DNA of 64,000 bases from the NCBI GenBank assembly GCA_026625625.1, contig CP113055.1, forward strand, positions 1,118,501-1,182,500, read 5' to 3'. The stretch comes from Blastomonas sp. SL216. GTDB taxonomy: Bacteria; Pseudomonadota; Alphaproteobacteria; Sphingomonadales; Sphingomonadaceae. The translations under genes and the position numbers were made by a program. The notes beneath the pieces were generated by a model that did no database searches, had not been told where the DNA came from, and saw nothing but the letters and a program-made list of their open reading frames with translations. The first letter of the stretch is position 1. Each line of letters starts with the position of its first letter. Of this stretch, positions 8,907-39,725 are shown in pieces.

Positions 8907-8913
8907 GGCGCAA

Positions 8914-25109: not shown

Positions 25110-25838
25110 TCAGCCCCGGAAATTGTCCTTGGCGGCGCGACGCTCGGCGAGTTCTTCGGCAGAGCGTGCACGCATGAACGGGTTGGTCGCGCGTTCGAGC
25201 GCAATCGTCGTCGGCACAGTCGGCTCACCACGCGCGCGCATGGCCAGCACCTGCTCCATCCGCTTAGCCAACGCCTGATTGTCCGGCTCTGCGACAAGCG
25301 CATAGCGGCCATTCGATTCGGTATATTCGTGCGCACAATAGACTGCAGTGTCACCCGGAAGCGCCGCCAGCCGCGTCATATTGTCGAACATCTGCTCCGC
25401 CGTCCCCTCGAACAGCCGACCGCAGCCCATGGCAAACAGCGTATCGCCGACAAAGATCGCCTGCTCATCGGGCAGATGATAGGCGATATGGCCGGCGGTA
25501 TGCGCAGGCACATCGATCACCTGTGCCCTCAGGGACCCCAGATGCACGACATCGCCGCCCTTTACCGTGGTATCAAAGGTGGCGATCCGTTCACGTTCAG
25601 CCTCGGGGCTGGTGATCGCGCAGCCGGTGGCGGCCTTGATGCCGGCATTGCCGCCAACATGGTCGGGATGCCAGTGCGTGTTCCAGATCTGCGTGATCGT
25701 CCATCCGCGCGCGCTGGCTTCGGCCAGCACCGGCTCTGCTTCGGCAGGGTCGATGACCACTGTCTCGCCGCTGACCGGCTCATGCACCAGCCAGATGTAA
25801 TTGTCGGACAGGGCGGGGATGCGGGCAATCTCTATCAT
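25110..25838 (-). CDS. gloB: hydroxyacylglutathione hydrolase (glyoxalase II)
   Basis: The 242-residue metallo-beta-lactamase-fold enzyme has the [10 protein letters not shown] zinc motif (near 54-63), the HTAGH His, [15 protein letters not shown] and the C-terminal NPFMR glutathione-binding segment. It hydrolyses S-lactoylglutathione. The start at [17 protein letters not shown] is the standard family start; longer frames run towards the neighbouring integrated element. It is the last chromosomal gene before that element. Confidence 0.95.
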
Positions 25839-25916
25839 GCGCGCGTTGTGCCCAATCGCACCTTGATTGCCAAGCACCCTGTGGGGCGCAAGGCCCCAAT
25901 CCTGTATGGAAAGAAA

Positions 25917-25938
25917 GGGGGTGGTGGACAGGGATGGA
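25917..25938. repeat. attL: 22-bp direct repeat, left copy
   Basis: This segment (GGGGG followed by the 17 bases TGGTGGACAGGGATGGA) is identical to 35822-35843. The 17-base part is the complement of the last bases of tRNA-Tyr including CCA, so this is the displaced original tRNA 3' end. Sequence identity stops on both sides. Confidence 0.92.
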
Positions 25939-25951
25939 CTGGAGCAATTCA

Positions 25952-26032
25952 GGTTAGCCAAAGGCTTAGGCTGGCTAACCCCCGTTTGCGCCCTACGCAA
26001 AACCTTGGCTGTACAGGGGGCAAAGGCTAACC
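25952..26032. repeat. GGCTAACC elements near attL (possible integrase arm sites)
   Basis: GGTTAGCCA (25952-25960) and TGGCTAACC (25972-25980) form a perfect 9-bp inverted repeat with an 11-bp spacer, and a third GGCTAACC lies at 26025-26032. The same heptamer recurs twice near attR (35756-35762 and 35780-35787). A role as integrase or excisionase arm sites is inferred from position only. Confidence 0.5.
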
Positions 26033-26064
26033 ATGCGCACGCCCCCGAGCCTCGCCAGCCTGTC

Positions 26065-26346
26065 GCCAGACAGTGCCAGACAGTTCCTACGCCCTGCGGG
26101 CTTCAAATGGCGTCCATCCCTCCCGATTGGAGCTGATCGAACGCCCCCGCCAGGGCGGGGTGCGGGGTGGCGAGCCTCAAAACTGTCTGACTGTCTGAAA
26201 TCACCAGACAGTTCGAACCGCAGAAATCTGCGGCTTGGGGACGGTTGCCAGACAGTCAGAACGTTTCTGCGCTTTCCGGTCATGCGTGCGCCTAGGTGCA
26301 TATGCGTAGTTCCGCAAAAACTGTCTGACTGTCTGAAAACTGTCTG
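26065..26346. repeat. iteron-like array, octamer CAGACAGT / ACTGTCTG, nine copies
   Basis: Exact octamers occur at 26067, 26077, 26182, 26190, 26205, 26249, 26320, 26328 and 26339 (first base), in both orientations. Three pairs are direct and closely spaced: an exact 10-bp tandem (26065-26084) and two 8-bp head-to-tail pairs (26182-26197, 26320-26335). Irregular gaps rule out a CRISPR. This arrangement is typical of initiator or repressor binding clusters. Confidence 0.85.
26145..26160. repeat. GC-rich hairpin inside the iteron region
   Basis: CCCCGCC and GGCGGGG form 7-bp arms around AG. It lies between the first and second groups of CAGACAGT octamers. Confidence 0.5.
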
Positions 26347-26395
26347 ATTGGGGATATTGAGAGGGAAGCTAAATGGTTGATTTTTCGTCGCCGAC

Positions 26396-26705
26396 CCTTC
26401 CACGGAAGGCTGGCAGAATGCCTCAAAATCCAAAATGGAAGGATGAAAAGCGCAAGTTTTTCAATGCCTTCCTGCGTCTTTGGAAGGATGGAAGGCGTTT
26501 GCGTACCCCTATATATATTCGCGTACCAAACGACACATGCGAGAGAGTATCAGATTTCCCTTCCATCCTTCCGTTTCTTCCAAAGGAAGAGAGGATTATG
26601 GAAGGTATATATCTGTATCTTCTAGGTTTTTCGCATTTTTTGCAAAACCTCCAAAACCTTCCGATCCCTGAAAACCGCCCTTTCCGCGCATTTTTGCGCG
26701 GAAGG
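26396..26705. repeat. second repeat family, GGAAGG / CCTTCC, eleven copies
   Basis: The hexamer occurs at 26396, 26404, 26437, 26467, 26482, 26490, 26559, 26567, 26600, 26657 and 26700 within 310 bp. Several copies extend to GGAAGGAT(G). Three pairs have starts exactly 8 bp apart (26396/26404, 26482/26490, 26559/26567), the same spacing seen in the adjacent octamer array. The stretch ends 32 bp before the first gene of the element. Confidence 0.75.
26682..26703. promoter_or_regulatory. hairpin upstream of the first element gene
   Basis: Perfect 9-bp arms TTCCGCGCA and TGCGCGGAA surround a TTTT loop, 33 bp before the ATG at 26737 and overlapping the last GGAAGG repeat. It could be a leader terminator, an operator or an origin structure. 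Confidence 0.5.
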
Positions 26706-26736
26706 ATGATCTTTGTTCGAGCTGTAGGAGACTGAA

Positions 26737-27510
26737 ATGGGCAAGGTTGTTGCCGTAGTTGCTACCATTGCGCTGGCCGTCGCTGTCGCCGCGTTCGCCC
26801 CCGCGCTGGGCACTGCCTTCCTGACAGCAGTAGGAACACAAGCCGCCACCACTTTGGCCACCGCTGCAGCTACTGGATTGGCCGCTAGTGTCATGTCGCT
26901 AGCCGGTGGCTTGCTGATACAACAGATCGGCAGCAACCCGGCACGCCTGCCCGATGGCAGGCATTGCCCGAGCTGGACCCCCACGCAGGCCCGTTCAGCT
27001 ATCCGCGTGCAAGAGAACTGGCGCTGGAAAGACATTCCGCAGCCTGCCCCCGCGCCGCTGCCTATCGGCCCGGTGCAGATCAACCCATTCCGTACCCCGT
27101 TACTGGCACTGGTGATTTGGGGCGCGACGTGGCTTTACGGCACGCGGTTTTGGCTGGTGCTCAACGCTGGCGACTGCATGGAACCGATGCTGCCCAAGGG
27201 CCATTGGGTGCTGATCGACAACGCCAGGGCAGCCCAGCCCGGCGATGCTATCAGCTTCATGACCGATGACCTGTTCATCAACTGGACTGAAGACCTGTCA
27301 CTTGCCGAACGGTTGCGGTCTTGCGGCATGATCAAGCAATATCTTGGACTGGCTGACGACGGGCAGGTGATGGTCTTTCGATCGATGAATGACCCTGTGA
27401 CCGGCCATACTGGCATAGCGCGCCTGCAATATCTGCACGTGGTGCGCTCGACGCACGCCACGTGGTTCGCCGCCATCGGCGCGCTGATCAAGGCCGCGTG
27501 CCGTGGCTAA
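26737..27510 (+). CDS. S24/S26 signal-peptidase-like protein with hydrophobic N-terminal domain
   Basis: The 257-residue protein has three parts: an Ala-rich hydrophobic N-terminus (residues 1-65), reminiscent of the start of phage tail-tip/fibre proteins; a linker; and an S26-like domain. The domain motif NAGDCMEPMLPKGHWVLID (143-161) matches the serine-protease box GDSMxP except that the nucleophile position is Cys147. MIKQYLGL supplies a candidate Lys200. A second hydrophobic segment at 122-140 precedes the motif. A TAGGAG ribosome-binding site precedes the ATG. It overlaps the HNH gene by 8 bp, so it belongs to the packaging operon. It may be a membrane protease, a noncatalytic regulator or a fused tail remnant. 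Confidence 0.72.
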   Translation: MGKVVAVVATIALAVAVAAFAPALGTAFLTAVGTQAATTLATAAATGLAASVMSLAGGLLIQQIGSNPARLPDGRHCPSWTPTQARSAIRVQENWRWKDIPQPAPAPLPIGPVQINPFRTPLLALVIWGATWLYGTRFWLVLNAGDCMEPMLPKGHWVLIDNARAAQPGDAISFMTDDLFINWTEDLSLAERLRSCGMIKQYLGLADDGQVMVFRSMNDPVTGHTGIARLQYLHVVRSTHATWFAAIGALIKAACRG

Positions 27511-27865
27511 GTGGCCGTACAACACCACGGCATGGCGCAAGCTGCGCGCATTGCACCTTGCCCTGCACCCGTTCTGCGAAAATTGTTTGTCGATCGATAG
27601 GCATGTGGTGGCCAATACCGTCGACCACCGTACGCCTATCAGCCAGGGCGGCGCACCCTTCCCCGGCCATGATGGCTTGGCCAGCTACTGCGCATCCTGC
27701 CACTCGGCCAAGACAGCGCGCGGCCCCGAGGCTGGCAGCGCCAAGACGTGGAAGCCGCGCAAGGGCTGCAACGCCGATGGCACGCCCCTTGATCGCCGCC
27801 ACCCTTGGCACGAAAAATCGCTCAGAGCTAAGCGGCCAAAACCGCCGTCGAAAGTCGGAATATAG
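27503..27865 (+). CDS. HNH endonuclease (terminase-associated)
   Basis: The 120-residue protein has a zinc-binding HNH core: CENC (25-28), VDHRTPISQGG (40-50) and GLASYCASCHSAKT (59-71). HNH proteins encoded directly before the large terminase are common in HK97-like phages and cooperate with TerL in DNA cutting. It ends 39 bp before terL, where a small terminase gene would often sit; none is present. A tail of basic residues follows the domain. Confidence 0.92.
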   Translation: MAKWPYNTTAWRKLRALHLALHPFCENCLSIDRHVVANTVDHRTPISQGGAPFPGHDGLASYCASCHSAKTARGPEAGSAKTWKPRKGCNADGTPLDRRHPWHEKSLRAKRPKPPSKVGI

Positions 27866-27904
27866 TTAGTTGGGTTTGGAAAATGGCAGAAAACCGGGGT
27901 TTTT

Positions 27905-29554
27905 ATGGGTAAGCGGGGACCGGGAGCGGGTAGGCAGAACGCGGTTGCGAAGCTGGCGCAGACGCCAGGGCGCGACCTTTTCAACCTCAACCCCACCGCG
28001 CCAGCGGTGCACCCTTGGGAGCTGCCAGGCCTGACCCGTGGCGAGCGCGTGGTGGCGTTTATCGAGAGCCTGCCGGTCACCAAGGGCTTTGGCGCGGGCG
28101 AGACAATCTGCCTGGAGCCGTTCCAGCGCGACTGGCTGCTGTCGATCTATGCGGACGGCCCCGACCAGCTGCGCCAGGTGCGCACCGCACTGCTGAGCGT
28201 GGCACGCGGCAATGGCAAGACAGTGCTATGCGCAGGGCTGGCGCTGGCGCACCTGATCGGCCCCGAGAGCGAACCGCGCGGCGAATGCTACAGCGCCGCC
28301 GCCACCAAGGAACAATCCGCCCTGATCTTTGCGGAAATGGACGCGATCATCATGGCCACCCCCTGGATGGCCCAGCGCCTGAACGTGAAGGCGTTCCACA
28401 AGGAAATCACCGACCACCAGACTGGATCGATCTACCGCGCACTCGCCAGCGACGGCAAGAGCGTGCACGGGCTGGCGTCGTCGTTCGTCGTCTGCGACGA
28501 GCTGGCGCAGTGGAAGCGCCGCGAGCTATTCGACGTGCTGCGCACGTCGATGGGCAAGCGCGAGCAACCCCTGTTGCTGGTGATCGGCACGCAGAGCCCG
28601 CACGCTGAAAACGTCATGTCCGAGCTAGTCGATTACGCGGCCCGGATCGAATCGGGGGAGATCGAGGACAAGAGCTTTCACGGCGCGGTCTATGCCGTGC
28701 CCGAGGACATGGACGCATTCGACCCGGCCAACTGGAAGCTCGCCAACCCCGCGCTAGGCGTGTTCCGCAGCGAACGCGAGCTGGCGGAGGAGGCCGAACG
28801 CGCCAAGCGGATGCCGACATTCGAACCGGCCTTCCGCAACCTGTATCTTAACCAGCGTGTCGATGCCGAGCCGAAGGCGATCAACCCGGCGGAATGGGCG
28901 CTATGCGGGGATCCGGTCGAGCGCCGGGCGTTGGCCAAACGCAAGTGCTTTGCGGGGCTGGACCTGTCGAGCACACGCGACCTTTCCGCGCTGGCGCTGT
29001 ACTTCCCCGATGACGGCGGCGCGGTGCTGCTGCACGCATGGTGCCCGAAGGACAACATGGCCGAGCGGGAAGAGAATGACCGCGTGCCCTATCGCCTGTG
29101 GGCGCAGCAAGGGCTTATCGAGCCGACGCCGGGCAAGGCGATCGACAAGCAATTTATCGCCGCCAGGCTGGCGCAGATCGCCCAGGAGTTCGATTTGCAG
29201 GGCGTGGCCTATGACCGATGGGGGATCAATGACCTTCGCGTGATCCTGAACCATGAAGGGGTGCAGCTGCCCCTGATCGAAATGGGCCAGGGCTATCGCG
29301 ATATGGGACCGGCGGTGGACGCGTTCGAAACCGCCTTGCTATCCGGCAAGATGCGCCATGGCATGAACCCGCTGCTGCGCTGGAGCGCGGGCAATCTGGT
29401 GTTCGAGATGGACCCGGCGGGGGCGCGCAAGCCCAGCAAGAACCGTTCGATCGACCGCATCGACCCGATGGTGGCGCTGATCATGGCAATCGGGCTGGCG
29501 GCGCGCGACACCGGCCCGCCGGTCTACATGGGCACGGGTATCAGCTGGCTTTAG
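27905..29554 (+). CDS. phage terminase large subunit
   Basis: The 549-residue protein has an ATPase with Walker A SVARGNGKT (Lys105), Walker B VVCDE (Asp198-Glu199) and the coupling motif IGTQSP (228-232). A RNase-H-like nuclease follows with Asp353 in AGLDLSSTRDLSALAL and a C-terminal DRIDPMVALIMA motif. It packages DNA into preformed heads. Length is normal for the HK97-like YmfN/Terminase_1 group. Its stop overlaps the convergent RHH gene by 4 bp. Confidence 0.95.
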   Translation: MGKRGPGAGRQNAVAKLAQTPGRDLFNLNPTAPAVHPWELPGLTRGERVVAFIESLPVTKGFGAGETICLEPFQRDWLLSIYADGPDQLRQVRTALLSVARGNGKTVLCAGLALAHLIGPESEPRGECYSAAATKEQSALIFAEMDAIIMATPWMAQRLNVKAFHKEITDHQTGSIYRALASDGKSVHGLASSFVVCDELAQWKRRELFDVLRTSMGKREQPLLLVIGTQSPHAENVMSELVDYAARIESGEIEDKSFHGAVYAVPEDMDAFDPANWKLANPALGVFRSERELAEEAERAKRMPTFEPAFRNLYLNQRVDAEPKAINPAEWALCGDPVERRALAKRKCFAGLDLSSTRDLSALALYFPDDGGAVLLHAWCPKDNMAEREENDRVPYRLWAQQGLIEPTPGKAIDKQFIAARLAQIAQEFDLQGVAYDRWGINDLRVILNHEGVQLPLIEMGQGYRDMGPAVDAFETALLSGKMRHGMNPLLRWSAGNLVFEMDPAGARKPSKNRSIDRIDPMVALIMAIGLAARDTGPPVYMGTGISWL

Positions 29555-29787
29555 ATGGGATCGCCAAGGCGCGACGGAAGTTCTTTGATGCCCCGCGAGG
29601 CCACCGTGCGGCCCCAAGCGTGTTCCAGCAATTGCCGAATTGCTTCAGGCCGGGAGAATCGCCCCCCGTCATCCTCAATCCATTGGTCTAGCCGTTCGAG
29701 CTGATCGGGCTGCAAGCGGACACTGATAGGCACGCCCTTGCCGGTGGCAGGCCTGCCTTTTCTTTTTGTGGTGGCACGAATTGACAT
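29551..29787 (-). CDS. ribbon-helix-helix DNA-binding protein
   Basis: The 78-residue protein has an Arc/CopG-type core: VPISVRLQPDQLERLDQWIEDDG (strand and helix 1) then RFSRPEAIRQLLEHAW (helix 2), with a basic N-terminus. It is the only minus-strand gene of the element, sits opposite the downstream gene block, and starts 4 bp from a perfect palindrome (29792-29811), suggesting autoregulation. No toxin partner is visible, so a phage-type repressor is more likely than an antitoxin. Confidence 0.85.
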   Translation of the reverse strand: MSIRATTKRKGRPATGKGVPISVRLQPDQLERLDQWIEDDGGRFSRPEAIRQLLEHAWGRTVASRGIKELPSRLGDPI

Positions 29788-29791
29788 AAGG

Positions 29792-29811
29792 ATTTTATGC
29801 TGCCATAAAAT
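29792..29811. promoter_or_regulatory. perfect 8-bp inverted repeat, likely RHH operator
   Basis: ATTTTATG and CATAAAAT flank CTGC in the 91-bp divergent region, 4 bp upstream of the RHH gene start. RHH proteins commonly bind such A/T-rich dyads in their own promoter; binding is inferred. Confidence 0.65.
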
Positions 29812-29818
29812 GCGAGCC

Positions 29819-29844
29819 GACGCAAGGATTAGGCCCCTTGCGTC
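29819..29844. promoter_or_regulatory. second inverted repeat in the divergent region
   Basis: GACGCAAGG and CCTTGCGTC pair perfectly around an 8-nt spacer, 35 bp before the ATG of the rightward gene. It may be a second operator or a leader hairpin. Confidence 0.5.
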
Positions 29845-29878
29845 AGCTCTAACCGCTAACCGTCACTAGGAGACGATT

Positions 29879-30238
29879 ATGGCTTCCCGAGCTTTAGGGC
29901 AGGATTCTGCCCGCAGCAATGTCATTCCCCTTCGCCCCGCAGCGCCATCGCTGCCCCGCGTTCCGCGCTTCGACCCTTCCAATCCGCAGCACGTGCAGTT
30001 CTGGGAGGCGGCTTGGGACGTGGCGTTCAACATGGGCGATATCTACCGCCCCCGCATCGAGCGCCAGGTCGAGCGCGGCATTGCCTTGCTGGACGCGATC
30101 GATGGCGACCCCGACCTAGAGGACGGCGACGAGGACAGTTGCCCCGCCTATGATGACCATGGCGGCGCGCCGCTGATCGGTCGCTTTGCGACGTTCGGCC
30201 CCGGCGACCCCGAGGACGCCGAGGACGACGCAGCGTGA
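29879..30238 (+). CDS. small acidic protein of unknown function
   Basis: The 119-residue product has a Pro-rich N-terminus, a central helix-forming segment (NPQHVQFWEAAWDVAFNMGD), then IALLDAIDGDPDLEDGDEDS and a very acidic tail (DPEDAEDDAA). DAIDGDPDLE-type tails are common in uncharacterised alphaproteobacterial proteins. An AGGAGA ribosome-binding site precedes the ATG. It is first in the rightward block after the RHH gene. I do not recognise a function; the negative charge leaves DNA mimicry possible but unsupported. Confidence 0.7.
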   Translation: MASRALGQDSARSNVIPLRPAAPSLPRVPRFDPSNPQHVQFWEAAWDVAFNMGDIYRPRIERQVERGIALLDAIDGDPDLEDGDEDSCPAYDDHGGAPLIGRFATFGPGDPEDAEDDAA

Positions 30239-30259
30239 GACTTGTCACGCATTGCAAAT

Positions 30260-30275
30260 CGTGATAGCTATCACG
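30260..30275. promoter_or_regulatory. 16-bp perfect palindrome, likely operator of the MerR-like gene
   Basis: CGTGATAG and CTATCACG abut with no spacer immediately before the ATG at 30278, and a TTGTCA lies 18 bp upstream. Placement at the start of a HTH-regulator gene suggests autoregulation. Confidence 0.6.
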
Positions 30276-30277
30276 TC

Positions 30278-30976
30278 ATGAGCATGACCTTGACCCTGAC
30301 CACGTTCACCCCGGCAGAGGCAGAAGCCATTACCGGCGTTTCCACCGCGTCCCAGCGTGATTGGCGACGCCGAGGCTTTCTAGCGTCCGGTGATGGTCAT
30401 GCGCGGTTCGACGCCTTCGACCTTGCACGAATGCTGGTGATCCGGCTGCTGTCTGATCGGGGAATCGGCCCCACACAGACCGCGCAAGCCCCTTCACTTG
30501 CTTTCGGAGACATTGCCTCGATTTGCGCAGTCGGTGCCTTGAGCAACGCATTTTCTTGGGTCGATGCTTGGGAAGGCGATTTGGACGAAATACCGACATC
30601 CATGACAATTCCCGAGGATGCCGAGGCAGAGTCATTCGTTCTGGAAATTATCAGCAGCAACCGAAGCGAAAACATCGCGACCGTTTTTCACAAGCAGTCA
30701 GTGCCCCAATGGCGCGCCAAGAAACGATACCTAATCAAGCAACTTTGGCGGGAGCGTTCAATTCCGCTGGTTACGCCAGGCAGCATGTTTATTTGGTGGG
30801 CGAACGGAGAACACAAGTTTGCCAATTCTCTTGAAAGTGAGATGGCGCAGATGTTCAGTTCTGACCCGCGCACTTGCGGACCTATCGTAGTGCTTGACTA
30901 CAATTCGCTGGCTTCAATGCTGATTGAACGCAGCGGGCGCGCCTTGTGTCACGTCGAGATCGCGAGCGATCGATGA
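30278..30976 (+). CDS. MerR-like helix-turn-helix regulator
   Basis: The 232-residue protein starts with a winged-HTH resembling MerR N-domains: FTPAEAEAITGVSTASQRDWRRRGFL (about 8-33), then ARFDAFDLARMLVIRLLSDRGIGP. The remaining 150 residues match no family I know. Base composition in the second half is more A/T-rich than in neighbouring genes, suggesting separate acquisition. The ATG at 30278 lies 2 bp after a perfect palindrome. The stop overlaps the next gene as ATGA. Confidence 0.75.
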   Translation: MSMTLTLTTFTPAEAEAITGVSTASQRDWRRRGFLASGDGHARFDAFDLARMLVIRLLSDRGIGPTQTAQAPSLAFGDIASICAVGALSNAFSWVDAWEGDLDEIPTSMTIPEDAEAESFVLEIISSNRSENIATVFHKQSVPQWRAKKRYLIKQLWRERSIPLVTPGSMFIWWANGEHKFANSLESEMAQMFSSDPRTCGPIVVLDYNSLASMLIERSGRALCHVEIASDR

Positions 30977-31620
30977 ATCCGCCCACCCCTGAGGCCGCGC
31001 CGCGCGGCCAAGAACAGACAGCCCGAGGCACGGGCGGCGCACCCGCTCCTTTGGGTGGACCGATGTGCTTCGCATCGGGCAACGCGGCAATCCTTTCGCC
31101 CGAAAATGAGGCTGCGCCGCGCGGCCAACAGCGGGAAGCCCGAGGCCAGGGCGGAGCGGCTGACATTCCGTTTTCCAAGGGCTTCGCATCGGGCAACGCG
31201 GCACTTCGACGCATGGGGCCTACCAGCCACCTGTCTTTCGAAGAGCAGGAGGCCGAGTCGAGGCGCTTTGAAGGGGTGCCGCTGATGCGGATCGCAAGGC
31301 CAGTGGACGAGGCGCGCCTGCAAGAGCTAGCCCTGCTGCAAGCGGCTGCGCTGGACGCCCAGCGCATCGCTCGCCACGAGGGGAACGACGCCACCTATAT
31401 CGAGGCGGGGCGGGACTATGGCGGCTATGAGGCCGAAATCCAGTTGTTGCTGCCCGATGACCCGGACCAGCGCCGATATCTGCGCCAAGTTACCACCCGC
31501 CAGATGAATGCGGAACGCGAGCGCCTGCGCCTTGTGGACAGGATGATGCGCGCCGCCGCACGAGCAACAACCGAACAACCAACGCCGCGAGGCAGTGGGC
31601 AATCTCAAGCCGGGGCATGA
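30973..31620 (+). CDS. unknown protein with two tandem repeats in its N-terminal half
   Basis: The 215-residue product holds two copies of a motif of the form EAAPRGQ...ARGxGGA...FASGNAA, encoded by 30991-31089 and 31108-31203. A helical, charged C-terminal half follows (RDYGGYEAEIQLLLPDDPDQ). No family is recognised. Position just before the capsid gene would suit a scaffold or connector, but no such homology is seen. It starts with an ATGA overlap on the MerR-like gene and ends in a palindrome (31609-31629). Confidence 0.65.
   Translation: MNPPTPEAAPRGQEQTARGTGGAPAPLGGPMCFASGNAAILSPENEAAPRGQQREARGQGGAADIPFSKGFASGNAALRRMGPTSHLSFEEQEAESRRFEGVPLMRIARPVDEARLQELALLQAAALDAQRIARHEGNDATYIEAGRDYGGYEAEIQLLLPDDPDQRRYLRQVTTRQMNAERERLRLVDRMMRAAARATTEQPTPRGSGQSQAGA
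30991..31203. repeat. two imperfect ~97-bp direct repeats inside a coding region
   Basis: Units begin at GAGGC(C/T)GCGCCGCGCGGCC (30991 and 31108) and end at CTTCGCATCGGGCAACGCGG, a period of about 117 bp. The ends are much better conserved than the middles, which suggests a dispersed repeat element read through in frame rather than a protein domain duplication. Confidence 0.7.
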
Positions 31621-31629
31621 TGCCCCGGC
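31609..31629. promoter_or_regulatory. perfect 10-bp inverted repeat before the capsid gene
   Basis: GCCGGGGCAT and ATGCCCCGGC flank a single G; the upstream stop codon lies inside. It is 21 bp before the capsid ATG and could act as an attenuator or RNA-processing hairpin adjusting capsid expression. No T-run follows. Confidence 0.5.
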
Positions 31630-31650
31630 GAGTTAGAAGGATGGTACGTC

Positions 31651-32889
31651 ATGACCAAATTGAGTGAGCTTCTGGAACGCCGCAGTGCCGCAGTGGCAGC
31701 GATGAAGGCCGCCGAGGAAACCGGCGGCGAAGCGTTCGACAAGGCCAAGGCCGACTATGACGCGGTGCAACCGCTGATCGAAAGGGCACAGGTGATCGAC
31801 CAGGCCGAAAGACAGGAACGCGGACGCCAGGTGCATGGCGACCCGAAGCTGACGGGCGAGCTGCGCAGCAAGTTCAGCATCGCGCGTCTGATCGCCGGGC
31901 ACATCAACCCCGGCAGCGTCGATGACGGCTTCGAGCGCGAAATGCAGGGCGAGCTGGCACGCCGCGCGGGCAAGGCAGCGCAAGGCCTGTATATCCCGAT
32001 GGAATGCTTCGAAAAGCGCGTCCTGACCAGCACGGGCGACGGCTCGGCAATCGTGCCCACCGACCACCGCCCCGAGCTGTATATCGACGCCCTGACCGCC
32101 GCGACGATCGTGCGGACGCTTGGCGCAACGGTGCTGACCGGACTGACCGGCAATGTCGAAATCCCGCGCGAGGCCGATTCGCCCAATGTCGGATGGGTGG
32201 CGCAGAATGCGGCTATCAGCGCCAGCGACCCGGACTTCGACCAGGTAACGCTTTCGCCCAAACACGCGGGCGCGATTACCGAGTACAGCCGCAACATGGT
32301 GATGCAGTCATCGCCGCAGATCGAGGCGCTGGTACGCCGGATGATGGCGCGCGATTTGGGCATTGCGATCGACCGCGCCGCGATCAAGGGCGGGGGCACG
32401 AATGAGCCGGTCGGCATTCTGTCGACCAGCGGAATCCAGACCCAGGCCTATGCCGCCAGCCTGCACAACACCTCGGCGGAAATGATCGCCAAGGCGCATA
32501 TCGCCAATGTCGATCCTGCCAGCGCGTTCCTTTCAACGCATGGCGTCGAGAAGATCGCCATGAAGGCGCTGGACCTGAACAACCAGCCGGTGCCGCTGGC
32601 CAGCATCTTCCACAACAAGCCCACCAATTTCAGCAACCAGGTGCCCAGCAACCTTGGCACGGGCACGGATGAATTCGGCCTGATCTATGGCGACTGGTCG
32701 GAGCTGCTGATTGGTATCTGGTCCGAAATCGACGTGCTGGTGAACCCGTACGAATCGACGGCCTATAGCAAGGGCAATATCAGCATTCGCGCCATGGCGA
32801 CGGTGGACTGCGCACTGCGCCACCCCACCGCGTTCGTATCGGCAACCGGGGTGGATGCGGACAGCATCGCCCTTCCGGCAGCTGCCTGA
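31651..32889 (+). CDS. HK97-family major capsid protein
   Basis: The 412-residue protein has an N-terminal coiled-coil-like scaffolding (delta) region of about 100 residues. The HK97 fold core follows: TDHRPELYIDAL, LGATVLTGLTGNVEIPREADSPNVGWVAQNAA split over strands, KHAGAITEYSRNMVMQSSPQIEALV, and a C-terminal LLIGIWSEIDVLVNPYESTAYSKGNISIRA stretch as in phage HK97 gp5 relatives. Full length and intact. It leads the order capsid-protease-portal, reversed compared with HK97. Its stop shares a base with the protease start (TGATG). Confidence 0.95.
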   Translation: MTKLSELLERRSAAVAAMKAAEETGGEAFDKAKADYDAVQPLIERAQVIDQAERQERGRQVHGDPKLTGELRSKFSIARLIAGHINPGSVDDGFEREMQGELARRAGKAAQGLYIPMECFEKRVLTSTGDGSAIVPTDHRPELYIDALTAATIVRTLGATVLTGLTGNVEIPREADSPNVGWVAQNAAISASDPDFDQVTLSPKHAGAITEYSRNMVMQSSPQIEALVRRMMARDLGIAIDRAAIKGGGTNEPVGILSTSGIQTQAYAASLHNTSAEMIAKAHIANVDPASAFLSTHGVEKIAMKALDLNNQPVPLASIFHNKPTNFSNQVPSNLGTGTDEFGLIYGDWSELLIGIWSEIDVLVNPYESTAYSKGNISIRAMATVDCALRHPTAFVSATGVDADSIALPAAA

Positions 32890-33428
32890 TGACGGCGGCG
32901 CACCTTGAACGCCGCACCTTTAGCGAGTTCCGGGCGGACCCGTCCGCCCGGAAACTTGAAGGCTATGCGGCCACGTTCGGCAGCGAGGCGAACCTTGGTT
33001 CGATCATCGAGACGATCGAGCCGGGCGCGTTCCGCGCGTCATTGTCGGGCGATATCGTCGCCCTGATGGACCATGACCAGGCGCTGGTTTTGGGGCGGAC
33101 GCGATCGGGCACGCTGCGCCTTTCCGAAGACTCGCGAGGGCTGGCCTTCAGTCTGGATCTTCCCGACACCCAAGCCGGGCGTGACGTGCTGGCGCTTGCA
33201 GCGCGCGGTGACCTTGGCGGCATGTCGTTCGGCTTTCAGGTGCCCAAGGGCGGTGACCATTGGAGCGGCAACCGCCGCGCCTTGCGCAGCGTCAACCTGT
33301 TCGAGATATCCGTGGTGTCGGCATGGCCTGCCTATCCTGACACCAGCCTTGCCCTGCGCAGCCGTATGCCGCTCGACGAACGCGAGCGCCGCCGCCGGGC
33401 GATCATCATCGCGGAGGCGCAGCTATGA
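32889..33428 (+). CDS. HK97-family prohead protease
   Basis: The 179-residue protein starts HLERRTFSEFRADPSARKLEGYAATFGS, a standard opening, and contains the catalytic His62 in LMDHDQALVLGRT and Ser113 in GGMSFGFQV. It removes the capsid delta domain during maturation. It is coupled both to the capsid gene (1-bp overlap) and to the portal gene (ATGA overlap). Confidence 0.95.
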   Translation: MTAAHLERRTFSEFRADPSARKLEGYAATFGSEANLGSIIETIEPGAFRASLSGDIVALMDHDQALVLGRTRSGTLRLSEDSRGLAFSLDLPDTQAGRDVLALAARGDLGGMSFGFQVPKGGDHWSGNRRALRSVNLFEISVVSAWPAYPDTSLALRSRMPLDERERRRRAIIIAEAQL

Positions 33429-34564
33429 GCCTGCTGGACCGCATTCTTGCCCCCTTGGGCTATGAGCGCCGCAGCATCGATCCGAGCTGGTCGGCGGTCG
33501 GCGCCAATGTCGGCTTTCCCGTGGCGCTGTCCGCACGCGCCGCAGAGAACCTTAGCGCGGTGCTGGCCTGTTCCAGCGCCATTGCATCGGCCCTGTCGTC
33601 CATCCCCGCGCTGATCTACCGCCGCCAGGGCGGGCAGCGCATCGAGGCTGAAAACCACCCGCTGACGCAGCTGACGCGATCGGGCTGGAATGAAGGGATG
33701 ACATGGCCCGAGGGCATGGAGCATCTGGTGGCGTCAACGCTGCTGACCGGCAACGGGCTGGCGGAAATCATGCGCGGCCCGAACGGGGCGCTGACCGGCC
33801 TGCGCTTCATTCCGTGGCAGTGGGTGACGGTGAGCGAGCTGCGCAGCGGACGGCTTGCCTATGACGTATCGGACGGCAAAGGCCGGTCATGGCGGTTGCT
33901 ACAGGGCGAAGTGATCCATTTGCGCGATCGAACCGACGATGGGCTTATCGGTCGATCGCGCCTTAGCCGTGCGTCGCGGACGGTGGAATCGGTGAGCGCC
34001 GCGGCTGAATTCGCCAGCCAGTTCCTGCAGAACGGTGCCCAGCCCAGCGGAGTGATCAAGTCGCCTACGCCGCTGTCGCCTGATCAATTCGCCATGCTGC
34101 GCGAGCAATTCAATAGCCGATATTCGGGCGCGAAGAACGCGGGCAAAACGTTGGTGCTGGACGCCGGGCTTGAATGGGCAGCGGCGCAAATCTCCCCCGA
34201 GGATGCCGAGCTGCTGGAAACCCGCAAATTTGGCGTCGAGGAAATCTGCCGACTGTTTCAGGTGCCCCCGCCGCTGGTGCAGGATTACAGCCACAACACG
34301 TTCACCAATAGCGAAACCGCCGGGCGATGGTTTGCCATGTTCTGCCTGACCCCGTGGGCGCGCAAGATCGAAGCCGAATTCGCCCGCAGCGTGTTCCCGA
34401 CCGGCGGGCCCTTCGAAATGGAAATGGACCTGTCGGGCTTCCTGCGCGGGGATCCAGCCACCCGGTGGAATGCCCACGCGATCGCGCTGGCAAATGGCGT
34501 GCTCGACCCCGACGAGGTGCGCCAGGTCGAGGGGTGGAATCCCCGAGCGGTGCCGAACGTATGA
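33425..34564 (+). CDS. HK97-family portal protein
   Basis: The 379-residue protein has the typical opening (DRILAPLGYE), SARAAENLSAVLACSSAIASALSS, the HPLTQLT segment, GEVIHLRDRTDDGLIGRSRLSRA and the conserved FGVEEICRLFQVPPPLVQD near 270. The family usually runs 380-430 residues, so this is near the short end but not obviously truncated. It forms the DNA entry ring of the head. The stop overlaps the next small gene as ATGA. Confidence 0.95.
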   Translation: MSLLDRILAPLGYERRSIDPSWSAVGANVGFPVALSARAAENLSAVLACSSAIASALSSIPALIYRRQGGQRIEAENHPLTQLTRSGWNEGMTWPEGMEHLVASTLLTGNGLAEIMRGPNGALTGLRFIPWQWVTVSELRSGRLAYDVSDGKGRSWRLLQGEVIHLRDRTDDGLIGRSRLSRASRTVESVSAAAEFASQFLQNGAQPSGVIKSPTPLSPDQFAMLREQFNSRYSGAKNAGKTLVLDAGLEWAAAQISPEDAELLETRKFGVEEICRLFQVPPPLVQDYSHNTFTNSETAGRWFAMFCLTPWARKIEAEFARSVFPTGGPFEMEMDLSGFLRGDPATRWNAHAIALANGVLDPDEVRQVEGWNPRAVPNV

Positions 34565-34749
34565 CCAGCCCGCGCCGCGCCACCTTCAAGCAGATCGACA
34601 TTACCAGAGCGATCCGTGGCGCGCGCGCGGGTGGCGCAGAGCACGTGCGCATTGAGCTGTCCCCTGATGGCCGCATGATCCTTGAAACCGTGCCCAGCAC
34701 GGCCCTGCCCAAGGGCTTCGAGAACGAATGGGATGAAGTGCTGCAATGA
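34561..34749 (+). CDS. 62-residue conserved small protein coupled to the integrase
   Basis: The product begins TSPRRATFKQIDITRAIRGA and ends NEWDEVLQ. The layout (basic helix, then HVRIELSPDGRMILET, then an acidic NEWD end) is a pattern I have seen in short uncharacterised proteins just upstream of tyrosine integrases in alphaproteobacterial phages. It overlaps portal and integrase by ATGA on each side. Size, charge and position fit an excisionase or directionality factor, but there is no direct evidence. Confidence 0.75.
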   Translation: MTSPRRATFKQIDITRAIRGARAGGAEHVRIELSPDGRMILETVPSTALPKGFENEWDEVLQ

Positions 34750-35813
34750 GCCGCACCCTGCCCCGATATGTGACCGAATTTGCAGATCGGCACGGCAAGT
34801 ATCGCCTGCGCTTTCGACGGAAGGGGCAGGCGACACATTATTTTCGCGCCAGCTTTGGCAGCGATGAATTCTGGCAGGAATATGCCGCCTGCCTCAAAGG
34901 TGAGCTTGCGCCCAAGGTGCAGCCCAGCCTGCCCCGCTTCCCCGTCGGTTCGATCGATGACCTGTGCGAGCGGTTCTATCGATCGCCAGGCTGGCAGGGC
35001 ATGACGAAGGAAAGTTCGCGCCGCACATACCGCAGCATCATCGAGCGATTCCGCAAGGCGCATGGCAGCAAGCGCGTGGCGACCGTGAAGGTGGAACACC
35101 TGGACGCGATCCTAGGCAAGATGCGCAGTACGCCGGCGGCCGCGAACAATCTGCGCAAGGTGCTAAAGCGCCTGTTCGCCTATGCCGTGAAACTTGGCTG
35201 GCGGCGCGACAACCCCGCCGAGCTGACGGACGCATTCAAGATCGAGGGCAGCGGCTTCCACGCTTGGACCGAAGCCGAGATCGAGCAATTTCAGGCGCAC
35301 CACCCCATAGGCAGCAAGGCCCGGCTGGCCATGGAGCTGATGCTGTGGACCGGGCAGCGCCGCAGCGACATTATCCAGTTAGGACGCCAGCACGTCGAGG
35401 CAGGCCGAATCCGCATCCGCCAGACCAAGACCGGCGCTGTCGTGCTGGTGCCTATATCCCCCCAGCTGCAACGCGTGCTCGACCGCGTGCCAGCGGGGCA
35501 GCTTTGCTTTCTCGAAACCGAATTCGGCAGACCCTTCACCAGCGCCGGTTTTGGCAACTGGTTTCGCGATCGATGCGACGAAGCGGGCTTGCCGCAGTGC
35601 AGCGCGCACGGCCTGCGCAAAGCGATGAGTCGCCGCCTAGCCGAGAGCGGCGCGACGCATATGCAGGGTAAAGCCGTGACCGGCCATAAGACCGATCGCG
35701 AGTATTCCCGCTATGCCGCGTCAGCCGATCAAGTTGCTATGGCGGACGAGGCGGTGGCTAACGTATCCGCAAAATTCGTGGCTAACCCCGACAAATCAAC
35801 GGAAAACCGTTGA
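34746..35813 (+). CDS. int: tyrosine-type site-specific integrase
   Basis: The 355-residue recombinase has an N-terminal arm-type region, a core-binding SAM-like domain (about 68-155) and a catalytic domain with Arg205 (TGQRRSD), Lys228 (QTKTG), His288 and Arg291 (SAHGLRK), His314 (TGHKT) and the nucleophile Tyr323 (SRYAASADQ). All six residues are present. The gene ends 8 bp from attR, a normal position for an integrase using a tRNA 3' end. Unusually, it is the last gene of the capsid operon rather than having its own promoter region. Confidence 0.96.
   Translation: MSRTLPRYVTEFADRHGKYRLRFRRKGQATHYFRASFGSDEFWQEYAACLKGELAPKVQPSLPRFPVGSIDDLCERFYRSPGWQGMTKESSRRTYRSIIERFRKAHGSKRVATVKVEHLDAILGKMRSTPAAANNLRKVLKRLFAYAVKLGWRRDNPAELTDAFKIEGSGFHAWTEAEIEQFQAHHPIGSKARLAMELMLWTGQRRSDIIQLGRQHVEAGRIRIRQTKTGAVVLVPISPQLQRVLDRVPAGQLCFLETEFGRPFTSAGFGNWFRDRCDEAGLPQCSAHGLRKAMSRRLAESGATHMQGKAVTGHKTDREYSRYAASADQVAMADEAVANVSAKFVANPDKSTENR
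35756..35787. repeat. two GGCTAAC elements near attR
   Basis: GGCTAAC at 35756-35762 and 35780-35787 (24-bp spacing) lie in the 3' end of int, encoding VANV and VANP. They match the three copies near attL. Confidence 0.45.
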
Positions 35814-35815
35814 TT
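35794..35815. terminator. hairpin at the end of int
   Basis: AATCAACGG and CCGTTGATT form a 9-bp stem with an AAAA loop and include the int stop codon. It probably ends the capsid-integrase transcript just before attR, though no T-run follows. Confidence 0.55.
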
Positions 35816-35821
35816 ATGGGC

Positions 35822-35843
35822 GGGGGTGGTGGACAGGGATGGA
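35822..35843. repeat. attR: 22-bp direct repeat, right copy within tRNA-Tyr 3' end
   Basis: Identical to 25917-25938. Seventeen of its bases are the 3' end of the functional tRNA-Tyr gene including CCA; five G residues lie just beyond the tRNA. Confidence 0.92.
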
Positions 35844-35914
35844 TTCGAACCACCGTTCGGCATTACCCGGGCAGATTTACAGTCTGCTGCCTTCAACCAC
35901 TCGGCCACCTGTCC
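35827..35914 (-). tRNA. tRNA-Tyr (anticodon GUA)
   Basis: An 88-nt class II tRNA on the minus strand. Acceptor arms GGACAGG and CCTGTCC pair perfectly, the anticodon stem-loop reads CAGACTGTAAATCTG (anticodon GTA), there is a long variable arm, a GGTTCGAATCC T-arm and encoded CCA. It is the attachment site of the 9.9-kb element and remains intact. Confidence 0.96.
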
Positions 35915-36072
35915 ACGCGCTTAAACCCAGTGCGTTGACCCCTTGGAGGGGGTCGTTCTTGCCGAGAGGCGGTCCCTTGAACAATTCGCGCTTGCCTGTC
36001 AATGGCGACAGGACGAAAAGCTGAAAACTATCAACACCGGCGTTACCCGCGCCCAAGAAAGACATACACACC

Positions 36073-36837
36073 ATGGCAAAACGCGGCGCACGCAACCGGA
36101 ACCGCAAGGCCGGACTCGAGGGCGGCAAGTTTCCGCGATTCTGGGGCACCCATGCCTGCGAGGCCGCGTTCAACAATCCCGAACGACAGATTCGCTGGAT
36201 TCGCGGCACGCGCGAAGCGCTGGCACAATTCGAACTGCCGCAGGGCGTTCCGGTGGAATTCGCCGATGTCGCCGATCTCGCCCGGCTGGTTGCGCGCGAC
36301 GCGCCGCACCAGGGAATCGTGATCGAGGTCGAGCCGCTCGACGACATGCTGCTCGACGATGTGCTGTCGGGCGATCCGCTGCGGCCGCTGGTGGTGCTCG
36401 ATCAGGTGACCGATCCGCACAATGTCGGCGCCATCTTCCGTTCCGCTGCCGCCTTCGATGCCGCCGCGATCATCACGCAGGACCGGCATGCGCCGCCCGA
36501 ATCGGGCACCGTGGCCAAGGCCGCGTCGGGCGCACTGGAAATCGTGCCCTGGGTGCGCGTGGTGAACCTGTCGCGTGCGCTCGAGGAAATGGCCAGCGCC
36601 GGCTATTGGCGCATCGGCCTGGCAGGGGAAGCCGAAGACACGCTGGCGCAGGCGCTGGGCAGCGGCCCGGTCGCGCTGGTGCTGGGCGCGGAAGGCGAAG
36701 GCCTTCGCCATAATGTTGCGGGGCATTGCGACGCCCTTGCCCGGCTGCCGATCAGCAGCGCTATGGAAAGTCTCAATGTGTCGAACGCAGCAGCAATTTC
36801 GCTCTATGCGATTCGGATGGACCGGGGAGAAGGCTGA
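36073..36837 (+). CDS. rlmB: SpoU/TrmH-family rRNA 2'-O-methyltransferase (RlmB-like)
   Basis: The 254-residue protein has an N-terminal RNA-binding region (FWGTHACEAAFNNPER) and a SPOUT knot domain with VLDQVTDPHNVGAIFRSA (motif 1), LVLGAEGEGL (motif 2) and MESLNVSNAAAISLY (motif 3). RlmB methylates the ribose of G2251 in 23S rRNA; specificity is inferred. Its stop shares one base with the next ATG (TGATG). Confidence 0.92.
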   Translation: MAKRGARNRNRKAGLEGGKFPRFWGTHACEAAFNNPERQIRWIRGTREALAQFELPQGVPVEFADVADLARLVARDAPHQGIVIEVEPLDDMLLDDVLSGDPLRPLVVLDQVTDPHNVGAIFRSAAAFDAAAIITQDRHAPPESGTVAKAASGALEIVPWVRVVNLSRALEEMASAGYWRIGLAGEAEDTLAQALGSGPVALVLGAEGEGLRHNVAGHCDALARLPISSAMESLNVSNAAAISLYAIRMDRGEG

Positions 36838-37805
36838 TGCGCATGCGGGGGCAAATCGGATTGCGGATCATCGCGGTGGCAGCGGCCGCCTGCATGCTCA
36901 CCGGCTGTCTGTTATCGCCGGGCAAGTTCACCGCGGACATGACAGTGATGCGCGGCGGCGGGTTCAGCTTCGCCTACAAGGGCGAGATCCATCTGCTGGG
37001 CCTGTCGCAACTGATCGCGATGGGCGCAGCGCTCGATGACAAGGACGCAGAGTTCACCCCGAGCCACTGCTATGGCGAACCTGCCGAGGTCGACGCAGCG
37101 GTGCTGAAGACGGCCGTCGTGCAGGAAGAACAGGAAGAGCAAGGCGAAGGCTGGGCCGAGGAGGCGCTCGAGCGCGAGTGCACGACGGCCGAGATCGAAA
37201 CGCAGAAGGAAGCCTGGGAAGAAGGGCGCGCCGCCAAAAAGGCAGAGGACGCGCGCAACATCGAACTGGTCAAGGCGCTGCTCGGCGGCATCGACCCCAC
37301 CTCCCCCGATGCGATCGACGAGTTCATCGTGCGGATCAAGAAGCAGAAGGGCTGGCGCGAGGTGGTGCACAAGGGCGACGGCCTGTTCAGCGTCGATTAT
37401 GCCATATCGGGCCGCATCGACCAGGATTACAGCTTCCCCACGCTGGAGAAGGTGCAGGGCATCACGCCGTTCATCGTCGCTACGGCGCGGACCAACAACG
37501 CGGTGCGCATCGATGCGCCGGCCTTTGCGGCAGGCGGACAGAGCAGCTTCATGGGCGGCAACATGGGCGGCCTGATGTCGATCTTCCAGGCAGTGGGCGC
37601 AGCGGGCAGCAGCGAGGAAGCCAAGGTCTTCGCCAACCTGCCCAAGCCCGACGGCGTGTTCATCATCCGCACCGATGGCGAAATTCTGACCAACAATACC
37701 GAGGACGGCCCCGGTGTTGCGGGCGCCATGCGCGTGCTCGAATGGAAGGTCAACGCCCGCCGCGACCGCGCGCCCGAGGCGCTCATCTCGCTCAACCCGG
37801 CCTGA
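36837..37805 (+). CDS. lipoprotein of unknown function, paralog A
   Basis: The 322-residue product has a lipoprotein signal (RIIAVAAAACMLTGC; lipobox LTGC) and then LLSPGKFTADMTVMRGGGFSFAYKGEI. It shares its start (LTGCLLSPGKF) and the late motif ILTNNTEDGP with the next gene, so the two are tandem paralogs. The middle is rich in Glu/Lys with a probable coiled coil (EEQEEQGEGWAEEALERECTTAEIETQKE split by Cys). No named family. It likely sits in a periplasm-facing membrane leaflet. Confidence 0.8.
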   Translation: MRMRGQIGLRIIAVAAAACMLTGCLLSPGKFTADMTVMRGGGFSFAYKGEIHLLGLSQLIAMGAALDDKDAEFTPSHCYGEPAEVDAAVLKTAVVQEEQEEQGEGWAEEALERECTTAEIETQKEAWEEGRAAKKAEDARNIELVKALLGGIDPTSPDAIDEFIVRIKKQKGWREVVHKGDGLFSVDYAISGRIDQDYSFPTLEKVQGITPFIVATARTNNAVRIDAPAFAAGGQSSFMGGNMGGLMSIFQAVGAAGSSEEAKVFANLPKPDGVFIIRTDGEILTNNTEDGPGVAGAMRVLEWKVNARRDRAPEALISLNPA

Positions 37806-37855
37806 CACAGGCTGCATACCGGACCAAACGGGTCGCACCTCGAAAGGACCGAGAC

Positions 37856-38662
37856 ATGAAGATGATACGCCTGATCGCCGCGTTGGCGATACCCCTGCTG
37901 CTGACGGGCTGCCTGCTGTCGCCCGGCAAGTTCAATTCCACGCTGGACCTCAAGCGTGATGGCAGTTTCACCTTTACCTATGTCGGCGAAATCGTGGTGA
38001 GTGACCTGTCGCCGCCGCCTGCCGAGTTCTCGGCGAGCCCGTGTTTCAGCGACGAGACCGGCGACGAGCGCGAATGCACCGAGGAGGAACTCGCCCAGCA
38101 GCGCAAGGACTTTGACGAGGCCCAGGCCGCGAACAATGGCGATGCTGGCATGGCGGCCAGCGCGATGGGCGGCGAAATGGGCGGGCTGGGCAGCGATGAA
38201 GGCATCGCCGAACTGGTCGAGCAGCTCAAGAAGCAGGAAGGCTGGAAGAAGGTCAGCTATCGCGGCAATCGCATCATCGATGTCGAATATGCGATCACCG
38301 GCACCAATGCACATGGCTTTGCCTTCCCGCTGGTCGATGGCGGCGCTGCGATCATGCCGTTCGTCACCATAATCAAGCGCAAGGATGGCAGCGTGAAGGT
38401 ATCGGCACCGGCTTATTCGGGCGAGGCTCCCGGCGGCGAGATGGCTGCGCTGGGCGCGATGGCGGGCGCCGGTGACGCCAAGGGCAAGGCGGCACAGCCC
38501 AAGCCCGAAGGCAGTTTCACCATCTCCACCGATGGCCGCATTCTGACCAACAACACCGAAGACGGCCCGACCACGGCCGGAGCGACCTCCACCCTCAAAT
38601 GGGTGGTCAACAGCCGCCTGCCGAAGGGCCCCGAGGCCCTGATCGGGCTTGCCGGTCAATAA
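37856..38662 (+). CDS. lipoprotein of unknown function, paralog B
   Basis: The 268-residue product has signal RLIAALAIPLLLTGC (lipobox LTGC), then LLSPGKFNSTLDLKRDGSFTFTYVGEI and the late ILTNNTEDGP motif shared with the gene just upstream. Between them lies a charged stretch (ECTEEELAQQRKDFDEAQAA) and a conserved KKQEGWKKVSYRGN segment that corresponds to KKQKGWREVVHKGD in paralog A. The duplication appears old, given moderate identity outside these motifs. The function is unknown. Confidence 0.8.
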   Translation: MKMIRLIAALAIPLLLTGCLLSPGKFNSTLDLKRDGSFTFTYVGEIVVSDLSPPPAEFSASPCFSDETGDERECTEEELAQQRKDFDEAQAANNGDAGMAASAMGGEMGGLGSDEGIAELVEQLKKQEGWKKVSYRGNRIIDVEYAITGTNAHGFAFPLVDGGAAIMPFVTIIKRKDGSVKVSAPAYSGEAPGGEMAALGAMAGAGDAKGKAAQPKPEGSFTISTDGRILTNNTEDGPTTAGATSTLKWVVNSRLPKGPEALIGLAGQ

Positions 38663-38684
38663 CCCATCGCGTAGCGGTCCGCGC

Positions 38685-39308
38685 ATGAGCGGACCGCGAC
38701 ACGCAATCCTGGCGCTGGCGGCGCTGGCCATTTTCGCAACATCGGGATGCATCGAGCGTCCCGACGAGGAAATGCTGCGCCCGCCACCCCAGATCACCCG
38801 GGCACTCGAGGCACTGGGCAATCGCTCCGCCGGACAGATCGTGCAGGAGGCTCGCAGGGGTTCGGAGCAGCTGGCGCGCCGCTCGGCCACGCTGACGGCC
38901 CCTGTCCTGGCCCGCGCAATCCGCCATGGCGAGGCGCAGGCGGTGCGTGCAGGTGCCAAGCCGATACCGCCCGCCATGCAGCAGCTGCTCGCCCCCTATT
39001 TCAAGCGCGACACGCTTGCATCGACGCGCTGGACGGTGGGCACAGGCCGGGTGGACCTGGGAACCATCGTCACCGAGCAGTTCATGGATGAAGGCGCGGT
39101 GGCGCTCAACCGTCAGGTCGTGTTCTCCAGCGCGCGGCTGACCGAGAATGTGTGGATGTGGGCGCATGAACTCGCCCATGTAGAGCAGTATCGCCGCATG
39201 GGCATCGACCGCTTTGCTGCGGCCTATGTTGCAGACTGGCGTGCAATAGAACGCGAAGCCTCCGAGCGCGCCGACAAGGTCACTGCCGCTATCCGCAAAT
39301 CGGGCTGA
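38685..39308 (+). CDS. lipoprotein with HELAH zincin-like motif
   Basis: The 207-residue product has a lipoprotein signal (ILALAALAIFATSGC) and a C-terminal WAHELAHVEQYRRMGIDRFAAAYVADW stretch (motif near residue 161-165), followed by EREASERAD. HExxH plus a downstream Glu in an EAxxxAD context resembles the DUF4157/eCIS-core-type putative metallopeptidase domain. Catalysis is unproven. Its RBS region overlaps the preceding lipoprotein's end, so the three lipoprotein genes may share a transcript with rlmB. Confidence 0.75.
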   Translation: MSGPRHAILALAALAIFATSGCIERPDEEMLRPPPQITRALEALGNRSAGQIVQEARRGSEQLARRSATLTAPVLARAIRHGEAQAVRAGAKPIPPAMQQLLAPYFKRDTLASTRWTVGTGRVDLGTIVTEQFMDEGAVALNRQVVFSSARLTENVWMWAHELAHVEQYRRMGIDRFAAAYVADWRAIEREASERADKVTAAIRKSG

Positions 39309-39324
39309 GGCCCGTTTGGCGAAA

Positions 39325-39357
39325 CAAAAAAGGCGGCGCTGTGGGCGCCGCCTTTTC
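39325..39357. terminator. intrinsic terminator (bidirectional) between lipoprotein and HU genes
   Basis: GGCGGCGC (39332-39339) and GCGCCGCC (39345-39352) form an 8-bp GC stem flanked by an A-run (CAAAAAA) and TTTT, the classic form of a bidirectional rho-independent terminator. It serves the rightward lipoprotein genes and the leftward HU gene. Confidence 0.85.
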
Positions 39358-39452
39358 CATGTATCTAGCATATCAACCGGGGAGGGTAATATTGCGACCC
39401 CTGCCCGCTCAAAGCATGCGTCTCGCCCGCCCTGCCGGACGGGCGCAAGCGA

Positions 39453-39725
39453 TCAGTTGACCGCGTCCTTAAGGCCCTTGCCGGCCTTGAACTTGGGCTG
39501 GGTCGAGGCCTTGATTTCCATCTTTTCGCCGGTGCGCGGGTTGCGGCCGGTCGATGCCTTGCGCTTGCTCACCGAAAACGTCCCGAAGCCGACGAGACGC
39601 ACTTCGCTGCCCTTGGCAAGTGCACCACTGATCGAATCGAACACGGCTTCCACCGCCTTGCTTGCATCTGCCTTGGTGATACCGGCCTGTTCGGAAACAG
39701 CCGAGATAAGATCGTTCTTGTTCAT
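39453..39725 (-). CDS. hup: HU-family DNA-binding protein
   Basis: The 90-residue protein has the HU pattern: MNKNDLISAVSEQAGITKADA, VRLVGFGTFSVSKRKA and GRNPRTGEKMEI with the DNA-intercalating NP pair in the beta arm. It bends and compacts DNA. The gene lies downstream of lon on the same strand, separated by 188 bp, a common lon-hup order. Confidence 0.96.
   Translation of the reverse strand: MNKNDLISAVSEQAGITKADASKAVEAVFDSISGALAKGSEVRLVGFGTFSVSKRKASTGRNPRTGEKMEIKASTQPKFKAGKGLKDAVN

Follow-up and report, generated by a model that had tools for sequence, protein, structure and literature searches.

An island in a tRNA-Tyr gene of Blastomonas sp. SL216 with its own head and packaging genes and no recognizable tail genes: a probable capsid-forming phage satellite

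Introduction

Capsid-forming phage satellites are a recently described class. The capsid-forming phage-inducible chromosomal islands (cfPICIs) encode capsid, protease, portal, connectors, both terminase subunits and an HNH protein, and need helper phages for tails only (PMC10690885); their capsids fall into three radiations (PMC11389934). Among Streptomyces phages, the satellites MulchRoom and MiniFlayer likewise encode head and packaging proteins of their own; the former carries an integrase and no obvious replicase, and the tail of its virion is attributed to the helper (PMC10690885). Here, we report an analysis of an island inserted in tRNA-Tyr of Blastomonas sp. SL216, at positions 25917-35843 of a 64-kb window, the whole stretch of DNA under study.

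We consider this island very probably to be an intact, integrated, capsid-forming phage satellite. It is a mobile unit with an empty site in related genomes, carries a full head and packaging set, belongs to a tail-less clade of narrow size range, is under purifying selection, and has relatives that occur as circular contigs.

A strain-specific insertion at tRNA-Tyr

Two exact 22-bp copies of a sequence from the 3' end region of tRNA-Tyr, GGGGGTGGTGGACAGGGATGGA, bound the island at 25917-25938 (attL) and 35822-35843 (attR, overlapping the 3' end of the tRNA gene), with a spacing of 9,905 bp; shuffled sequences yielded repeats of 11 bp at most. The integration target, tRNA-Tyr(gta), lies intact at 35827-35914 on the reverse strand (ARAGORN; Rfam, 62.2 bits). 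Both ends of the island are fixed by the outer flanks, which, when joined, align without interruption over ~2.1 kb in three congeneric genomes (85.7, 85.2 and 82.8%), revealing empty sites. In four other congeners, homology ends at the att site, and the same tRNA-Tyr carries other islands, whose integrase is different. The empty and the otherwise occupied sites together therefore point to a strain-specific insertion at a hotspot. The unrelated tRNA-Tyr islands of congeners L218-L221 encode integrases of 403-408 amino acids (aa), and that of L219 also encodes a large protein resembling a mobilization relaxase, a candidate assignment.

Head and packaging genes

Translation of the open reading frames and Pfam and PHROG profiles identified six full-length genes, all on the forward strand. 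These encode a packaging-associated HNH endonuclease (27503-27865; PF01844, 1e-7; phrog_2323, 1.6e-23), the terminase large subunit TerL with ATPase and nuclease domains (27905-29554; PF20441, 2.7e-40; PF03354, 7.9e-25; phrog_9, 4.6e-139), an HK97-fold major capsid protein with an N-terminal delta-like region (31651-32889; PF05065, 1.4e-32), an S78 prohead protease (32889-33428; PF04586, 7.2e-39), a portal (33425-34564; PF04860, 5.3e-94) and a tyrosine integrase (34746-35813; PF00589, 1e-17; phrog_1, 1.3e-40), which retains the complete set of catalytic residues (R, K, H-x-x-R, H and Y). Capsid and protease genes overlap by 1 bp, and the protease and portal genes by 4 bp, as do the portal gene and that of a 62-aa protein, and the latter and the integrase gene. 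Gene calling on the remainder of the island added small accessory genes only. AlphaFold did not yield a usable model of the capsid (predicted local distance difference test, pLDDT, 45.7).

Pfam and PHROG scans of the island proteins matched no tail, connector, lysis or primase gene and no recognizable small terminase (TerS) family; an AlpA-like regulator and a replication gene were also not found in the island, both being present among relatives. The att repeats, the intact tRNA, the integrase residues, the five full-length head and packaging genes and the absence of tail, connector, TerS, lysis and primase genes had all been part of the original prediction, and all are borne out.

A clade of tail-less elements

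A single-sequence scan of genome contigs returned no relatives. With a capsid profile, species genomes yielded 71 loci and viral contigs at least 80; these counts are not independent, since some loci recur in two collections. Gene order was counted in relatives with at least 8.5 kb of sequence. TerL lies upstream of the capsid gene in 88 of these and downstream in 18, and the capsid-protease-portal order is kept in 86 of the 88 and all 18, respectively. The order of the family is replication gene, HNH, TerL, helix-turn-helix (HTH) gene, capsid, protease, portal, (connector), integrase; among the 88 TerL-first relatives, HNH is found in 85, next to TerL, integrase in 75 (mostly after portal or connector), a connector by homology in 47 and head-closure genes in 18. 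The elements are alphaproteobacterial and patchily distributed: among about 200 genomes from the host family, 9 besides that of SL216 have a strong capsid match. In a tree built from 84 non-redundant portal rows, the HNH-TerL-first elements form a single clade of 62 rows (SH-aLRT 100), one of them re-ordered, in which the island and its nearest relative, L005, are sisters close to Sphingobium elements. Gammaproteobacterial and betaproteobacterial elements of cfPICI order form a group of their own (support 95); with its long branches, the tree does not resolve the joining point of the Escherichia coli island EcCIEDL933.

The head, packaging and integrase proteins of the island are 85-92% identical to those of L005 (capsid, 87%), which shows the same gene absences. 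At a synonymous divergence (dS) of 0.5-0.9 between the two, dN/dS is 0.085 for portal, 0.09 for TerL, 0.10 for protease, 0.12 for integrase and 0.16 for capsid. Such ratios indicate strong purifying selection on the core genes.

Nineteen elements with their own att repeats, measured from the tRNA gene downstream of the integrase to its repeat upstream, span 9.8-11.2 kb (median 10.6 kb), with tRNA genes for Gln, Arg, Ser, Phe, Lys and Tyr as targets. Replication, packaging, head and integrase genes take up this length, which therefore leaves no room for a tail operon. None of the 19 has tail or lysis modules within its att boundaries, and no tail genes are present in the 88 relatives of the same gene order, a claim based on size and gene content. 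In a PHROG scan of 76 non-core proteins of relatives, the families listed (25 of 106) concern replication, regulation, head-tail adaptors, and terminase and scaffold, the last two probably from neighboring phage DNA in one locus (L190). The proposal that the island is a capsid-forming satellite, made in the original prediction, is thus supported by the tail-less relatives and by the narrow size range of the att-bounded elements.

Two metagenomic relatives are circular. The contig of L144 (10,167 bp) begins and stops within the portal gene; its two ends overlap by 24 bp, and joining them restores an unbroken portal frame. In that of L201 (~10,030 bp), a 118-bp repeat is present at the termini. 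Such contigs could stem from an excised circle or from tandem copies.

Alternative explanations

The alternative named in the original prediction was a relic, that is, a formerly complete tailed prophage that has lost its tail and lysis genes and is decaying. The missing connector, TerS and replication genes would fit such a history, as would the lack of a detected helper prophage. However, the tail-less state is common to the whole clade, with size and gene order conserved, relatives occur as circular contigs, every core frame is intact, and the strong purifying selection on the core genes is unlike what is expected of a relic. Tailed homologues at the site, or a lack of tail-less relatives together with relaxed selection on the genes, had been specified beforehand as outcomes that would speak for decay, and neither was found. 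We regard a relic as very unlikely.

A still less probable reading is that the cell has domesticated the head genes for a role like that of a gene transfer agent (GTA) or for protein delivery. Such use exists in the lineage: the same genome contains, at 3389000-3405700, a separate cluster of TerL, portal, protease, capsid and tail genes resembling the Rhodobacter capsulatus agent (RcGTA). The portal and capsid of the island, however, share only ~30% identity with those of the GTA, and the integrase, the att sites, the empty sites in congeners, the patchy distribution and the varied tRNA targets all characterize a mobile element. The GTA_TIM family (PF13547) has no match in this GTA or in other sphingomonad GTAs and is unusable for analyzing GTA co-occurrence.

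The RcGTA-like cluster also bears on the source of tails. The original prediction had called for a search for a tailed helper prophage in the same genome; only this cluster was found, containing the one other HK97 capsid match and the one other Terminase_6N match of the complete genome, in which PhageMin_Tail had no match. As the sole tail-coding locus detected, the GTA might lend its tails to the satellite in place of an infecting phage, a scenario to which we assign about the same slight chance as to domestication. Least probable of all is that no tailed helper is needed and that a tail-less head is released and enters by another route, or the excised element is transferred by other means: about half of the relatives do lack a detectable connector, but the connector and head-closure genes of many others have a known use in tail joining, and portal and terminase are, in HK97-type phages, parts of a tail-dependent injection system.

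Several points nevertheless weigh against an intact satellite. No helper or tailed prophage was detected in the complete genome, where other phage types were not searched for exhaustively. The circular contigs belong to relatives and could also derive from tandem integrated copies. Recognizable connector, TerS, AlpA and replication genes are absent, and this copy may be less autonomous or impaired, a concern offset by the same absences in L005. On the first of these points, EcCIEDL933 is mobilized by phages foreign to its strain and detectably by none of the strain's 17 prophages (PMC11389934), so that the lack of such a helper in the genome does not count against a satellite.

The replication slot and accessory genes

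In all 17 other elements in which it could be measured, the slot between attL and HNH/TerL contains an open frame of ~260-735 aa. Eight of ten slot proteins scanned, drawn from these 17 elements and one further, match AAA_25 helicase, Prim-Pol/D5, VapE or HTH_36. A primase, helicase or initiator thus fills the slot in almost all relatives, and the island and L005 have none there, in line with the unusually minimal gene set, without primase or AlpA, that had been predicted.

In the island, the slot instead holds a 257-aa protein (26737-27510, forward strand) and an iteron-like array (26067-26346) in which the octamer ACTGTCTG occurs nine times, counting both strands, with seven such octamers at the equivalent place in L005. 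The window has 10 copies of ACTGTCTG, against 0.74 expected for the whole 64 kb. Some copies are in tandem with 8-bp spacing and resemble operator boxes of ribbon-helix-helix (RHH) proteins as well as iterons. Other arrays occur in relatives within or just 3' of the replication gene, for example TCCGCCAA with eight copies in L042 and GCGTCACC with eleven in L081. We infer that the ACTGTCTG array may mark the replication origin and that the sub-lineage of the island and L005 may have lost its cognate helicase and lean on host or helper proteins. Alternatively, the array could be the operator of the 78-aa RHH protein, a candidate repressor encoded on the reverse strand at 29551-29787 (PF01402, 6.4e-5), which has a tblastn match in 30 of the 88 relatives.

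The 257-aa protein has a hydrophobic N-terminus and a weak C-terminal S24-like match below the cut-off (PF00717, E 0.0037); its gene overlaps HNH by 8 bp. It appears to be accessory, being absent from L005 and without relatives in phages, the 200 genomes of the host family or the viral contigs. Downstream of TerL, on the forward strand, follow genes for a 119-aa protein without a Pfam or PHROG match (29879-30238), which recurs in relatives as a 20-member cluster, for a MerR-type HTH protein (30278-30976; PF13411, 9.4e-6) and for a 224-aa protein of uncertain exact start (30946-31620), whose C-terminal part is common to L005. The 62-aa protein ahead of the integrase (34561-34749, forward strand), a candidate excision or regulatory factor, is 73% identical in L005 and has no family match. 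None of these genes, nor the array, figured in the original prediction.

Directly 5' of the capsid gene, most relatives have a gene of variable sequence with a MerR-like or other HTH-like start, as read by eye. In the small terminase of lambda, too, DNA is bound by a winged-helix domain, and for this reason the MerR-type protein of the island may be a small-terminase analogue; a role as a regulator is equally possible.

Several features of individual relatives were also recorded. Two related elements, L037 and L038, share a contig (in G197, which matches Sphingobium wenxiniae in L061/L090), separated by ~46 kb, and for L038 the gene caller found no intact portal frame at the expected place. 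A 208-aa family of unknown function adjoins the portal or connector gene in L005 (8151-8777), L134, L169, L183, L186 and L188; it has no match among phage genomes, and searches gave no support to the L005 gene as a phage tail protein. In L154, a Laminin_G_3 (concanavalin-like) protein encoded after the portal (8678-9358) is possible surface or adhesin-like cargo.

A possible life cycle

Judging from gene content, a cycle can be proposed for this copy. Upon infection by a helper phage, the integrase would excise a ~9.9-kb circle from tRNA-Tyr, which host or helper replication proteins would copy from the iteron region, because the island has no recognizable primase. Satellite capsid, protease and portal would form a small head, presumably near T=3 when HK97 is scaled by volume, into which TerL and HNH would package satellite DNA. 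Connectors and a tail made by the helper would then join the satellite portal, and the hybrid particle would inject into a new sphingomonad. Induction by a helper, helper dependence, replication mode, particle formation and tail capture are thus all predicted.

Comparison with known systems

Around the island, a coherent alphaproteobacterial lineage can be defined, characterized by a distinct gene order, a genome tightly held to ~10 kb, insertion at many different tRNA genes and interchangeable replication modules; no published report of this lineage was found in the searchable literature, a scope that does not include the primary cfPICI survey. Having no recognized connector, small terminase or primase, the island is a minimal case in which to ask what a satellite head itself has to supply in order to take a foreign tail, and it suggests that a share of the ~10-kb 'incomplete prophages' in sphingomonads and their relatives are complete satellites.

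For comparison with EcCIEDL933 we used positions 25330-39761 of the E. coli EDL933 locus L050, which we take to be EcCIEDL933 from gene content. Both elements are compact and encode an integrase, HK97 capsid, protease, portal, HNH and TerL, without tail genes, and both have the capsid-protease-portal order, the reverse of the portal-first order of the tailed phages checked. They differ in that HNH-TerL lies upstream of the capsid in the Blastomonas island and downstream in EcCIEDL933, the integrases are at opposite ends, and the former (~10 kb against ~14.4 kb) has no recognized connector, head-closure, P27 TerS, AlpA-like or primase gene. Pairwise searches gave identities of 30% for portal and 43% for protease, with capsid below detection.

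The gammaproteobacterial and betaproteobacterial elements of cfPICI order (in Pseudomonas aeruginosa PA7, Halomonadaceae, the Acinetobacter plasmid pHZE33-1-1 and others) share the capsid-protease-portal block, with capsids ~36-40% identical to that of the island, but have HNH, TerS-like and TerL genes after the portal, and connector and head closure after TerL. The pHZE33-1-1 module, from Acinetobacter schindleri (L049, 8995-14875), comprises head and packaging genes on a 132-kb plasmid and adjoins insertion sequence elements. MulchRoom and MiniFlayer, likened here to the island by description only, differ in hosts, virulent helpers, terminal repeats and low GC content. The RcGTA-like agent of the same genome likewise has an HK97-type capsid (28% identical), protease and portal (31% identical), but in portal-protease-capsid order, with full tail genes and neither integrase nor att sites; the island shows no such portal-protease-capsid-tail cluster without integrase.

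Among the listed cfPICI features, the island has the major capsid, head maturation protease, portal, TerL and HNH; no tail genes were recognized in it, and dependence on a helper for tails is predicted; head-tail connectors are missing, as is the small terminase subunit, for which there is a positional HTH candidate only. It shares integrase and att sites with PICIs in general, without their AlpA-like regulator and primase/replication module. Because two listed cfPICI parts are missing and the gene order is different, we file the island, on its feature list and gene order, not as a cfPICI member but as a putative variant of the capsid-forming satellites.

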